Below are positions 19,935 through 25,334 of a DNA stretch of 64,000 nucleotides, one piece after another. The position numbers and the translations under genes were made by a program. This DNA comes from Serpula lacrymans var. lacrymans S7.9 (Eukaryota; Basidiomycota; Agaricomycetes; Boletales; Serpulaceae). Each line of letters opens with the position of its first letter. Position 1 is the first letter of the stretch. The stretch spans positions 238,715 to 302,714 of the forward strand of contig NW_006763296.1 of the NCBI RefSeq assembly GCF_000218685.1, given 5' to 3'. Below the pieces are notes generated by a model. It was not told the origin of the DNA. It was given only the letters and a program-made list of their open reading frames with translations, and did not search any database.

Positions 19935-20137
19935 GCGGAGGTTAATGAAGGGGTGGGTTGCTACGTGCATATGGAGTTACTTAAATATGCACAAGGTGGG
20001 GATTCTTTGATAGGGTGACTTTGGGCGCTTGCATCCACGCTTCGCTCTCTTCTTTCACTCACTTAGTCTGCCGGGCGGCTTTTTGTTCTTTTTGGGACAG
20101 TATTAAATATATTTATGCGGAAATGTTACAAATGGAG

Positions 20138-21595
20138 CTAGCTAACCATCTCTATAGGCTCGAAATTGCCAAGTTTCTTGGTCCGTAAAGCTGGTGCATC
20201 ACGGAACCACACACGTGTGGTCAATTCGGCTTCAAGCCACGCAAATTCTGGCCCTACGTTGAGAGGATTGAGTCCCTTTACGGGCGATCCATCATCCGAA
20301 TCATCACTGCTATCCCCATCCTCTTCTGCCTTCGATGCTGATCGTGTTTTCGGTTTTGAAGGCCCGGCATCAGGCTGCTTGGCTTTGCCTTTCACGGCAG
20401 CTCTCTTCTGTTGCTGAAGTGTAGAGATTGAATCTCCCCAACCAGCTCCAGTGGTTTCATTGACAGCTGCATCCAGGTTTTCCACGCGTGCCTCAAAAGC
20501 GGCTTCACTTTCACCAGGAAGACGATCATAAGGATTGTCAAACCTATCACGATTAACAGAGTGAGAAGGTCGGCCTGTAACAAACTTTTTCTTATGATCT
20601 TTGTCGAGCGGTTTGTAGTTGGGAGGGACAAAGTCCATACGAGGTCCGGGGGCAACACAATAGGCAATCATAGTGAAAAATAACGCCTTGCGAGTAGGAT
20701 TGGGGTTCGGGTGATCCAACTTGGTGAACGAAAATTCATCAACGTCCTCATTGTATTCGTATGTATGATTCATAGGTTTGAATAAATTAAAGGGTTGATT
20801 TTGGGCGACACCAGATCCATTCTTAAATGTTCTTCTGAGCTCATAGAACGGTCTGAATCCTGTGCTTCGAACAGGATAACCGTACATATAAACATCCCTT
20901 CTTTCCAAACCATAAGATTGACGATGCATCCAATCAAACGGCATGAAGTGAGGGTCTCCAGATGTGTCATCAGAACAATTGACTACTTTACCAGTAAACC
21001 CGACGGGCGCGGACCTGTAAGTTCCATATTCATCTTGAAAACTGCGGGCGACTCCTTTGTTTCGAAATGTTTCCCTCTGGGGATCGACGGCATTGGCGTC
21101 CACGTGATAAAATAAAAATCGTATCATCCATTGACTTTGCGGACTGATCCGGAAAACAAATCTGGTACAAACACCTACCACCTTCGCACGAGTGGAATGA
21201 CGATGTTTGCGGATGTTCCTATTGGTCGAATAAGGTATATGATTCAACTGCACCGTATAATGCTGCGCATAAGCTGCGGTAGCGCAAGTGTCTACCATGC
21301 GATTGCGGGTATCAAATCTCAAGGGGACCTTAGTAATTGACTCATCCGCAGCTCGCTCGACAACGGTATACGTAAGTTCCTCAATACGTGAACCAACTCG
21401 GCGTGTTGCCTTTGAATATCTGGATCGTACACGGCGTGAATAACGCGATTTGGCGCGGACAGTTCGGGAGCCCAACTTCCGTCCGCTCCGACGGCGCCGT
21501 CCTCGTGAAACACGAGCTGTCTTGCGACGGCAAAACGTACGACATTTGTGGAATTTATTGTTACAATGAACCACGCCATAACTGCGACGTGGCAT
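20138..21595 (-). CDS. Capsid-like protein of the CRESS element
   Basis: An uninterrupted leftward frame. The first ATG that gives a sensible protein is at 21595 (MPRRSYGVVHC), about 45 nt after a TATA box, for 485 residues. A frame extended five codons upstream would need a TTG start. Residues 1-75 are strongly arginine-rich (e.g. SRGRRRRSGRKLGSRTVRAK), as in DNA-packaging arms of geminivirus and genomovirus capsids. The middle is rich in aromatic residues and beta-type strands (RFVFRISPQSQWMIRFLFYH), compatible with a jelly-roll. The last 110 residues are acidic and Lys/Ser-rich (KAEEDGDSSDDSDDGSPVKG), an unusual extension. The capsid call rests on position, charge pattern and size; I could not align it. 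No stop or frameshift was seen, unlike Rep. Confidence 0.65.
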   Translation of the reverse strand: MPRRSYGVVHCNNKFHKCRTFCRRKTARVSRGRRRRSGRKLGSRTVRAKSRYSRRVRSRYSKATRRVGSRIEELTYTVVERAADESITKVPLRFDTRNRMVDTCATAAYAQHYTVQLNHIPYSTNRNIRKHRHSTRAKVVGVCTRFVFRISPQSQWMIRFLFYHVDANAVDPQRETFRNKGVARSFQDEYGTYRSAPVGFTGKVVNCSDDTSGDPHFMPFDWMHRQSYGLERRDVYMYGYPVRSTGFRPFYELRRTFKNGSGVAQNQPFNLFKPMNHTYEYNEDVDEFSFTKLDHPNPNPTRKALFFTMIAYCVAPGPRMDFVPPNYKPLDKDHKKKFVTGRPSHSVNRDRFDNPYDRLPGESEAAFEARVENLDAAVNETTGAGWGDSISTLQQQKRAAVKGKAKQPDAGPSKPKTRSASKAEEDGDSSDDSDDGSPVKGLNPLNVGPEFAWLEAELTTRVWFRDAPALRTKKLGNFEPIEMVS

Positions 21596-21643
21596 ATAAG
21601 CATAAAACAAGAAGGGAAATGAAACTACTTACACAACTCAGGC

Positions 21644-21651
21644 TATTTATA
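21644..21651 (-). promoter_or_regulatory. TATA box of the capsid-like gene
   Basis: TATAAATA on the minus strand, about 50 nt before the chosen ATG. It resembles the TATA box of the neighbouring leftward gene (22900-22891). Confidence 0.55.
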
Positions 21652-21736
21652 GTTTTTCACACATTTCAAACTCCGAATGACGACTTTATTTTTTTTTAAC
21701 ACAGATCCAAAATAATTACTAATGCTACTATAGTAA

Positions 21737-23375: not shown

Positions 23376-23410
23376 GCATCACGCATGTGACATCACTACC
23401 CTCTAAGGGA

Positions 23411-23417
23411 TATATAA
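23411..23417 (+). promoter_or_regulatory. TATA box of the Rep gene
   Basis: TATATAA at 23411 lies about 45 nt before ATG 23461. The upstream in-frame ATG at 23422 is too close to the TATA box to be in a normal transcript, which decides the start at 23461. Confidence 0.65.
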
Positions 23418-23460
23418 GCACATGATGGGTCTCCTTCCTACTCTCACTACACCTGCCACG

Positions 23461-25193
23461 ATGGCGAGTTTCATTTGGTCACTTCCTTCCACACTATCAA
23501 CCTTAACACCTTCTCCTGCTCCTCAATCAGTATGCGCCCCTTCTGTTCCTGCCACCCCCTCTGCTAGGGGTAATGGAGAAATCGCCGACGACCGTATCAG
23601 TAACTGGTCGTTGTCACCGGCACCAAATCGCCGACTTCAACGTCGAATTCAGCCTTCACCTGCGCCCTCTGTCGCATCGGCGCACTCAGAGGCTTCTAAT
23701 GCACGTCATGCTCAACGTGGAGAGAGGCATGAAGGAGGTAACCCCAACTTCCGTTGGTCAGCAAGAAACATGCTACTGACATATTCCCAAGTGAGTCATC
23801 CATTACATAAGATAAGCGAATTAAACTTAAACAAGACATTACCTGCCCTTCCGGATAGATCGGAGATAGGCCCAACCAGGCCCTTTCTGATGTGATCGCC
23901 CAATTATCGCTGCAACTGGCGGAATGGGCTGCTATTAGAGAGCACCACCAGGACGGGGGATCCCATTGGCATGTCATCGTCAAATTCGATGTGCCAATCA
24001 GATCAAGAAACCCCGCCTTCTTCGACGTGGATGGCATACATCCAAACGTTAAAACGTAAGTACCCTAACTTTAACCTTAACCCTAACTTGCTAACCAGGT
24101 TTTTCGCCTGTTTTTCGCACCGCCTTCGGCGGCACGTGATTAATATCCCCAACACTTATCCTTAACAGGTGAGCATTTACATTGGGGAGTTAGGTGTGGC
24201 TAAGCGGGACCTAAGTGCTGGTCCAAGTTTCATGACGCTAACCTAACTTCTTTCTCAGGCTGGCTTCTGCAAAGTCTGTATGCAACGCCTGGACCTACCT
24301 CCAGAAAGAAGAAGGGGCGGACCACTTTGGACCCTGGCAGGGTCCAGAGGCCGTCCTCGATGCAGAGGGAGGAATGGGAAAAGCTAAGAAGGACGAAAAG
24401 TGGGGTCATATCATCGCCTCATTGTCTAGGGACGAGTACGAGGAGCAGGTCCAAACGTTCAGGCCATATGATTGGGTCGTTAACCACAACAAAATTATCA
24501 ACTCTGCCGACAAGCACTGGCCCGCCGAGCCGGAACAATATGTATTGGAAGTTACTGAATTCCCACACCTGACAGAGGAAATGAGGGATTGGGTAACTAA
24601 TGAGATGCCTAAAAGGGATAGGCCTAAATTGTTAGTGGTTTGGGGCCCGACTAGGACCGGTAAAACGGAATGGGCTAGATCATTAGGTGAGTCTTTGAAG
24701 ACATGTTTTAAGTGCGATCATACTTACCTTGGAATTCACAGGTCGTCATACTTACATGAACAGTTTGTTCAATGCAGACGACATCAACGAGGCATCCGAC
24801 TATATTGTTCTCGACGACATCAGCCTAGAGCACTTCCCAAACTACAAGTCTTGGTTTGGGGCTCAAAAGCAATTCATCGTCACCGACAAGTACAAGTCAA
24901 AGTGAACCATCAAATGGGGTAAGCCATGCATTTGGCTATCAAACGAAAACCCATTGGACATAAGGGCAAGGGGCATCAACACTGAATGGATCGCAGGTAA
25001 CACCATCGTTGTCAACCTTGACCACCGCCTTTACGATGTACCTGACAAACCAGCTCCGCAACCAGTGCGTGTAGAATGGCAAGGAAATGTCGTAGAACGC
25101 ATAGCCCAGCCTGTTCCACAAAGGCCTATTCCAGAAAGAGAAGATGTAGTGTACTTAGAGGACCTTTATGGTTCAAACCCTGTATGGAGATAG
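23461..25193 (+). pseudogene. rep: Spliced CRESS-DNA Rep, broken by an in-frame stop
   Basis: Rep nicks and joins viral DNA in rolling-circle replication and carries a superfamily 3 helicase. Four exons are inferred from GT-AG sites and motif continuity: 23461-23790, 23859-24055, 24259-24686 and 24742-25193. A disordered N-terminus of about 100 residues precedes motif I (MLLTYSQ), motif II (HWHVIVKF), a geminivirus-Rep-sequence-like stretch (FFDVDGIHPNV) and motif III with the catalytic Tyr (YLQKE). The helicase half has Walker A (GPTRTGKT), Walker B (IVLDDI) and motif C (WLSNEN). A TGA at 24903-24905 interrupts exon 4 between Walker B and motif C; the frame then stays open to TAG 25191-25193. 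Spliced Rep is known in mastreviruses and genomoviruses. Phylogenetic placement was not tested. Confidence 0.85.
24056..24258 (+). other. Two abutting introns in Rep
   Basis: The interval starts GTAAGT and ends TTTCTCAG, but inside is an acceptor immediately followed by a donor (AACAG|GTGAGC, junction 24168/24169). It can be read as introns of 113 and 90 nt with no exon between. The first half carries degenerate telomere-like text (CCCTAACTTTAACCTTAACC). Confidence 0.55.
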
Positions 25194-25334
25194 TTTACGC
25201 TTCGCTTTCTTTTCTCTTTAACCCCCCTTAATCCCCCAAGGCGGAAATTACTTGATATATTGATTAATTATGAGTGAGCTTGAGTTATGTAAATCAAAAC
25301 TTGTGGTTGTTGTTTTTAATCAGAACTTTACAAA

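Follow-up and report, generated by a model that had tools for sequence, protein, structure and literature searches.

Many fungal genomes contain fossils of geminivirus-type rep genes, for the most part with nothing else of the virus preserved. A stretch of 64,000 nucleotides of Serpula lacrymans var. lacrymans S7.9 (assembly GCF_000218685.1, contig NW_006763296.1, positions 238,715 to 302,714; hereafter the window, whose coordinates are used throughout) raises the question of what such a virus may have been as a whole and how it came to lie inside an 18S rRNA gene, as that gene is interrupted by a foreign block of 5,399 bp (19935-25333) which carries a replication initiator (Rep) gene, a putative origin and two further genes. 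We put at roughly two in three the probability that the block is a near-complete endogenous three-gene CRESS-DNA (circular Rep-encoding single-stranded DNA) virus of agaricomycetes of 5.4-5.9 kb, or a closely related capsid-bearing replicon, which as a circle with 18S sequence entered the ribosomal DNA (rDNA) by homologous recombination. Fungal Rep fossils, including that of Serpula, are known; what is new is the left 18S junction shared by two copies, the 285-bp duplication of 18S sequence and the purifying selection.

Structure of the interrupted 18S rRNA gene

Rfam model RF01960 matched the 18S gene on both sides of the block, on the left with model positions 4-1116 at 18564-19673 plus a piece at 19741-20033 that aligns past the edge, and on the right with model positions 1117-1823 at 25358-26045. 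After comparison with the right arm and with the second copy of the element, the edges became exact: 18S identity stops at 19934 and restarts at 25334, and the first-pass annotation, made by a model from the letters and their open reading frames, had thus placed the block (19935-25334) correctly within one base. That annotation had missed a duplication. Because the right flank re-starts at an upstream 18S position, 285 bp of 18S sequence are directly repeated around the insert (19650-19934 and 25334-25618), so that the gene now consists of a left part at 18564-19934, the right arm of the duplication and a remaining 3' part at 25619-26045, all on the plus strand. The right arm differs from the left at 6 positions, 5 of which are changes of CpG to TpG or CpA in the right arm.

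The rDNA of the window is a solitary fragment, made up of 18S and part of internal transcribed spacer 1 (ITS1, read by eye), and neither 5.8S nor 28S gave a match anywhere in the 64-kb window at Rfam gathering scores. The left 18S part has 5 matches in the genome; since only the window's own match covers it whole, the rDNA array seems largely unassembled. A decayed 18S fragment, 86% identical, was also noted at C1:3209452-3209986 of the S. lacrymans genome.

Within the block, the order from left to right is a non-coding stretch (19935-20137) past the end of a leftward 485-amino-acid (aa) gene, then a leftward spliced gene, an intergenic region of 607 bp, a rightward rep in four pieces and a second non-coding stretch (25194-25333) past the end of rep. 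A TATA box precedes the ATG of each of the three genes by 45-56 bp, as calculated from the coordinates. The two non-coding ends are the halves of a region resembling the short intergenic region (SIR) of mastreviruses, and the gene order supports the layout proposed at first sight, that is long intergenic region (LIR), V2-position gene, capsid-like gene, SIR, spliced Rep and LIR.

The rep gene and the putative replication origin

The rep gene (23461-25193, plus strand) was delineated by tblastn of P0007, the 468-aa gene model of the second copy, together with Pfam, as four exon-like pieces at approximately 23461-23796, 23859-24053, 24258-24686 and 24741-25193, separated by splice-type introns. 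The last piece of the window copy carries one in-frame stop, at a place where the second copy is open. The main rep exon of the window copy matched Pfam Gemini_AL1_M (E 7.6e-36), while P0007 matched both Gemini_AL1 (2.6e-11) and Gemini_AL1_M (2.7e-40); both domains are therefore seen in the second-copy model and only the central one in the window copy. These matches and the introns bear out the Rep motifs and spliced Rep that had been read from the letters, and the translation includes HWH and GPTRTGKT, which we take to be Rep motifs. The N-terminal domain of P0007 also matches solved Rep or replication-associated chains (best E 2.3e-7, 6 distinct sequences), presumably of geminivirus origin. 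The record of P0007 is named 'hypothetical protein' at NCBI, and its UniRef name starts with 'CRESS-DNA'. P0007 thereby has the Rep expected of the Genomoviridae, of geminivirus type and with both an HUH nuclease and an SF3 helicase domain. The second Rep intron (24057-24257) contains CCCTAA/CCTTAA repeats of a degenerate, telomere-like kind, which are more numerous in the second copy, and the public Rep model of strain S7.3, P0013, looks wrong, a stretch of the last exon being left out.

The bidirectional, LIR-like intergenic region (22854-23460) contains TATA boxes at 22898 on the minus strand and 23411 on the plus strand, and within it lies a hairpin (23336-23375, plus strand) with a perfect stem of 13 bp and a 14-nucleotide loop, CAATGTTAAGTTAT, the putative replication origin. 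Hairpin and loop are identical in both copies; a stem of 13 bp was reached in none of 300 Markov-resampled versions of the region, and the fold has a z of -4.27. As an iteron candidate, GGGTAG/CTACCC occurs 5 times in the 607 bp, where its frequency across the window predicts 0.25, directly at 23164, 23186, 23323 and 23330 and inverted at 23396, that is on both sides of the hairpin. The hairpin origin with iterons and bidirectional TATA boxes of the first-pass annotation was accordingly confirmed. Rep would nick the hairpin loop and thereby drive rolling-circle replication of a 5.4-5.9 kb circle. Among the Cressdnaviricota criteria, a rolling-circle Rep and the hairpin are present, the circular form is deduced from the ends of the second copy alone, and for the jelly-roll capsid there is a candidate. 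The description 'nearly whole genome' gains from Rep, layout and hairpin as far as the near-complete look is concerned, but wholeness itself is what we infer from them.

The capsid candidate and the V2-position gene

The 485-aa protein (P0001) is encoded at 20138-21595 on the minus strand, with a TATAAATA box whose first base is at 21651 on the same strand, about 56 bp before the ATG, and its frame is open in both copies. We divide it into an arm (residues 1-66), a core (67-345) and a tail (346-485). The arm is rich in arginine, with 27 R/K and no D/E among its 66 residues, and basic arms at the N-terminus of the capsid protein (CP) are described for many single-stranded DNA viruses (PMC11945456). 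From this arm, the place and strand of the gene and its constrained core, we consider the 485-aa leftward protein probably to be the capsid protein.

No family or structure matched this protein in PHROGs, Pfam, NCBIfam and PDB. The geminivirus coat family gave no match to the window frames in Pfam scans up to E 10, a level at which remote homology may remain, and a genomovirus capsid was not matched in protein, Pfam, NCBIfam, PHROG and PDB searches, which did not include a direct comparison with a genomovirus CP. The term 'capsid-like' thus stands for the basic arm and the position, but as a description only, a viral homologue not having been found. Two weak hits, Sf6_terminase (E 0.032) and OXA beta-lactamase (E 0.013), lie far below the family cut-offs and were rejected. 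The Chou-Fasman strand preference of the core is above that of 114 of 120 other proteins (Rep matches), a measure too crude to serve as evidence. The public S7.3 model of this protein, P0002, which belongs to the window-type copy, looks wrong, as it starts in another frame.

Between this gene and the intergenic region lies the third, V2-position gene on the minus strand, with a first exon tested over 22512-22853 and a second-exon region at 21737-22447, in which two overlapping frames of 236 and 166 aa are both open in both copies. The V2-position region is rich in G+C (0.569 at 22001-23000 against 0.46-0.49 in the adjacent kilobases). The product of the gene would be an accessory protein.

Two copies of the element and selection on its genes

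The capsid candidate, a Rep exon, the intergenic region and the middle region each occur in two places of the genome only, on C7 (the window) and on C12, where the second copy, with an open rep, lies within C12:1-5942 at the start of another contig. Apart from 18S sequence the C12 element is about 5.55 kb long, compared with 5,399 bp in the window. The copies differ by 2.0% in the intergenic region, 3.1% in the capsid gene, 5-7% in the mid exons and 3-6% in the Rep exons, with extremes of 0 in 126 positions for the spacer that separates the capsid and middle genes and of 14% for the mid intron of 56 bp; in the non-coding end at 19940-20137, 6 of 198 aligned bases differ. Loss of CpG is greater in the window copy (of the sites that are CpG in one copy and TpG/CpA in the other, 66 have the CpG in C12 and 16 in the window), and with its rep stop this copy has decayed since entry.

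We estimated dN/dS, the ratio of non-synonymous to synonymous change, between the two copies by the method of Nei and Gojobori with a bootstrap range, and compared the amino-acid changes with a null in which as many CpG transitions, other transitions and transversions as observed were placed randomly on the C12 sequence in 2000 runs; the test took in Rep exons 1, 3 and 4, and Rep exon 2 was left out of the selection results. For the whole capsid candidate dN/dS was 0.36 (0.19-0.71), and as few amino-acid changes arose in 15 of 2000 null runs; its core gave 0.16 (0.05-0.38; 2/2000), exon 1 of the V2-position gene 0.08 (0/2000), and Rep exons 3 and 4 gave 0.16 and 0.14 (24/2000 and 10/2000). The capsid core, V2-position exon 1 and Rep exons 3 and 4 are under purifying selection, and therefore the simplest view of these frames is that they are genuine genes of a replicating entity. 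The strongest new evidence is that the capsid-position frame is a gene which, like Rep, has been constrained in its evolution, most simply while the element was replicating, prior to the insertions or in the time between them.

Low dN/dS would also be expected if Rep and its neighbours had been retained by the fungus for a cellular role. This domestication agrees with values well below 1 and with the record of the C12 Rep as a host hypothetical protein, but the rep of the window copy carries a stop, and the intergenic region, only 2.0% different, has been kept with its identical hairpin as a unit with the genes; we regard it as quite improbable.

More weight belongs to a capsidless geminivirus-type plasmid or transposon, that is, a viral Rep and origin moving in fungal genomes with the leftward genes as cargo. 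Such an element has a precedent in the geminivirus-like transposon of Tuber, described with Rep, transposase frames and 37-bp terminal inverted repeats (TIRs) (PMC3198968). The failure to find capsid homology for the 485-aa protein would suit it, as would the high G+C of the V2-position region, which foreign cargo might show. The element occurs, however, in only two genome places, its ends are 18S sequence, with neither TIRs nor a short target duplication, no inverted repeat links the two ends of the window copy, no transposase matched among the frames scanned, and the arginine-rich arm and selected core suit a capsid. This alternative is in our judgement unlikely.

Relatives and phylogeny of Rep

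A profile search with Rep gave 394 relatives among 3,548 candidates, and the best 120 of these 394 matches supplied both the relatives described here and the rows for two trees. Besides Serpula, the matches listed include named records of 14 species in 11 genera, Suillus, Pisolithus, Trametes, Amanita, Laccaria, Russula, Lactifluus, Flammula, Cerrena, Gymnopilus and Lactarius, all of which we take to be agaricomycete, plus rows named genomovirus. No row named as geminivirus was among them, most rows being without a name. The label 'geminivirus-like' therefore holds for the type of Rep, but the Rep looks closer to the genomovirus type.

In the first tree, fungal and some environmental Reps split from genomovirus and other environmental rows (21 of 40 rows, support 100/99). 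For the second, P0032 and P0033, both long branches, were taken out together with P0013, P0025, P0078, P0095 and P0116, and P0018, P0020, P0040, P0042 and P0063 added; the branch of fungal and related environmental Reps (20 of 38 rows, 100/99) was then present in 100% of 200 bootstrap trees. Both trees are unrooted, with geminiviruses and plasmid Reps not among their rows. Within the branch, Reps of Russulales form one group (100/98 and 100/97 in the two trees), and the Serpula Rep groups with Pisolithus and one environmental row at 83/88 and 91/89, which is not decisive. When the second tree is drawn with midpoint rooting, 6 of the 18 genomovirus-type rows come together with the fungal branch (98/96). 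In the unrooted tree, the Rep belongs to a branch with strong support that is made up of agaricomycete and environmental sequences, apart from all sampled genomoviruses. Grouping with plasmid or transposon Reps, which the first-pass annotation had named as the outcome contrary to its proposal, was not seen, the Rep lying with fungal and environmental Reps of geminivirus/genomovirus type in trees of this sampling.

Two Reps of the same branch, P0005 and P0009, are on short contigs of 5,790 and 5,586 bp. These contigs, known from Rep only, are of the size expected for relatives, which may perhaps be circulating now.

Proposed entry into rDNA and points against the proposal

The left 18S junction is common to both copies. 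On the right side of C12, 18S restarts 91 bases further upstream than in the window; this 18S part and the end of the element have apparently been lost from the window copy, whose right non-coding stretch is shorter by 124 gap columns in the alignment with C12. The right 18S piece of C12 ends with the 12-mer CAGGTCCAGACA, which is also found at the start of the C12 contig, preceded there by a single base, as would be expected of a circle that had been opened at this point. If its ends are closed, the C12 unit makes a circle of about 5.92 kb in which 18S forms a continuous piece of about 375 bp. A single crossover of such a circle with the 18S gene would leave the element flanked by a direct 18S duplication, and this one-step entry would yield the structure observed in the window.

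The same 18S pieces invite the suspicion that the assembly linked 18S reads to viral or plasmid DNA from the culture. The position of the C12 copy at a contig end, the identity of its 18S pieces and the seemingly unassembled rDNA array speak for such an artefact. The S7.3 assembly, on the other hand, has both proteins, the capsid-candidate fragment P0002 and Rep P0013, on a contig of the same 2.7-Mb size (2,701,176 bp, presumably a single one), and the right 18S arm of the window has decayed in the CpG manner given above; an artefact is very improbable. The right flank of C12 (401 bases) has one genome match and hence is not an abundant repeat.

Several observations nevertheless weigh against a near-complete virus that entered through its own 18S sequence. 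The 18S piece may not have been part of a free circle. The C12 left junction sits at the first base of its contig, and a comparison of the C12 18S pieces with the left arm of the window gave 0 differences over 393 positions (5 just past the edge), which is odd beside an element mostly 2-7% divergent, although the 126-bp spacer of the element is likewise without a difference, and may reflect gene conversion, late capture or rDNA reads in the assembly. The evidence of selection stems from a single pair of copies, and within it constraint was not significant for Rep exon 1 (null 191/2000) or the two frames of V2-position exon 2 (642 and 548/2000), nor was any seen in the arm (dN/dS 1.93, 0.22-3.05) or tail (0.82, 0.23-3.91) of the capsid candidate. 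No homologue of that candidate was found outside Serpula, a search of 5,989 candidates giving 2 matches, its own protein and that of Serpula S7.3. The structure check for a jelly-roll that had been suggested was run, but the two AlphaFold predictions gave no usable fold (mean predicted local distance difference test, pLDDT, 29.7 and 28.8), so that folds were not compared. The unrooted trees leave room for a placement of the Rep within Genomoviridae, and it may be either sister of or within that family. Six scans of viral_contigs gave no free relatives; as the one among them that served as control, with a genomovirus Rep alignment, also gave none, this is no evidence of absence.

Neighbourhood of the two copies

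A few kilobases upstream of the window copy (13725-15730) are frames resembling Ty1/copia integrase and gag, which we take to be a retrotransposon. After the ITS1 stub, 26100-28200 presumably holds pieces of genes with a ubiquitin-like header (Crinkler-like) and a kinase-like domain, and 43470-44048, 45232-46124 and 58651-59208 hold what we assume are three alcohol-dehydrogenase-like genes. To the right of the C12 copy (L005 5937-8360) a host gene seems to end with its 3' part, followed by a frame that resembles the endonuclease of a LINE (long interspersed nuclear element). At about 51640-52548 of the window all translations are X, indicating a run of N (an assembly gap or masked stretch).

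Comparison with known systems

In the Genomoviridae the Rep and CP genes lie on opposite strands, as do rep and the CP-position gene here. The element further resembles this family (SsHADV-1-like members and the segmented FgGMTV1 and BcssDV1) in its geminivirus-type Rep, hairpin origin and fungal host, and the loop 9-mer CAATGTTAA shares 7 of 9 letters with TAATGTTAT, the sequence given for a genomovirus-like molecule (PMC6186406). It differs in its 5.4 kb and three genes, in the separate Rep branch of the unrooted trees and in the lack of a CP match, genomovirus genomes being described as 1.8-2.4 kb with two open reading frames (PMC10731770).

To the Geminiviridae, and mastreviruses in particular, the element is linked by its gene order, the Gemini_AL1 and Gemini_AL1_M domains and the matches of the N-terminal domain to Rep structures. 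The mastrevirus plan consists of LIR, V2-position gene, CP gene, SIR and spliced Rep, and the family is marked by geminate particles and plant hosts. The differences are a single 5.4-kb unit, the absence of a Pfam coat match, a fungal instead of a plant host for an element known from sequence alone, and an origin loop that in neither copy contains TAATATTAC, the nonanucleotide of geminivirus origin loops.

Among endogenous elements, Liu et al. 2011 report Rep fossils in fungi including Laccaria, Tuber and Nectria, as well as the Rep-bearing Tuber transposon, and their survey of eukaryotic genomes gave no more than three CP-like sequences, from tobacco and sloth (PMC3198968). Puustusmaa et al. 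2017 describe that the Rep domains of Serpula, Pisolithus and Laccaria recognise each other, the Serpula Rep having been noticed then (PMC5618006), and endogenous elements of fungal genomes are stated to cluster near Genomoviridae and Geminiviridae (PMC6186406). In agreement, the sampled Laccaria and Pisolithus Reps are on the same branch as the Serpula Rep, but the Serpula element combines Rep with an origin and two further genes, each at least partly constrained; unlike the Tuber-type transposon, it is without an end-to-end inverted repeat or a transposase match in the scanned frames. No title or abstract opening among the literature matches listed names the three-gene layout or the capsid-position gene, the search covering neither subscription papers nor preprints.

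Since rep, origin and two genes have been kept together, the element indicates how large such a virus is likely to be and which genes it probably has; it tells virome searches to seek circles of 5-6 kb, supplies structural biology with a candidate capsid protein and points to rDNA as a possible site of insertion, with carried 18S sequence as the way in. Only tentatively do we propose that mushroom-forming fungi have a CRESS-DNA virus lineage of family rank, so far unrecognised, of which this element is the first three-gene blueprint, with single circles of 5-6 kb, mastrevirus-like order, a new and larger capsid (possibly above T=1) and 18S sequence by which the circle enters rDNA.

The Rep lineage of Bacilladnaviridae and Gandreviridae is different from that of the element, and the capsid candidate is set apart from these families by having no sequence match to any solved chain. 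In genome size it is of the same class, as Bacilladnaviridae of about 4-6 kb and Gandreviridae of 5.2-9.1 kb are described with T=3 capsids (PMC11945456). For a circle of 5.4-5.9 kb a T=1 shell would presumably be too small, and a 485-aa protein, if it is the capsid, may, with no link in sequence, recall the T=3 size class of CRESS-DNA viruses more than the genomoviruses. The element is also relevant to the question of larger relatives of geminiviruses and genomoviruses in fungi, being itself about twice their usual size.

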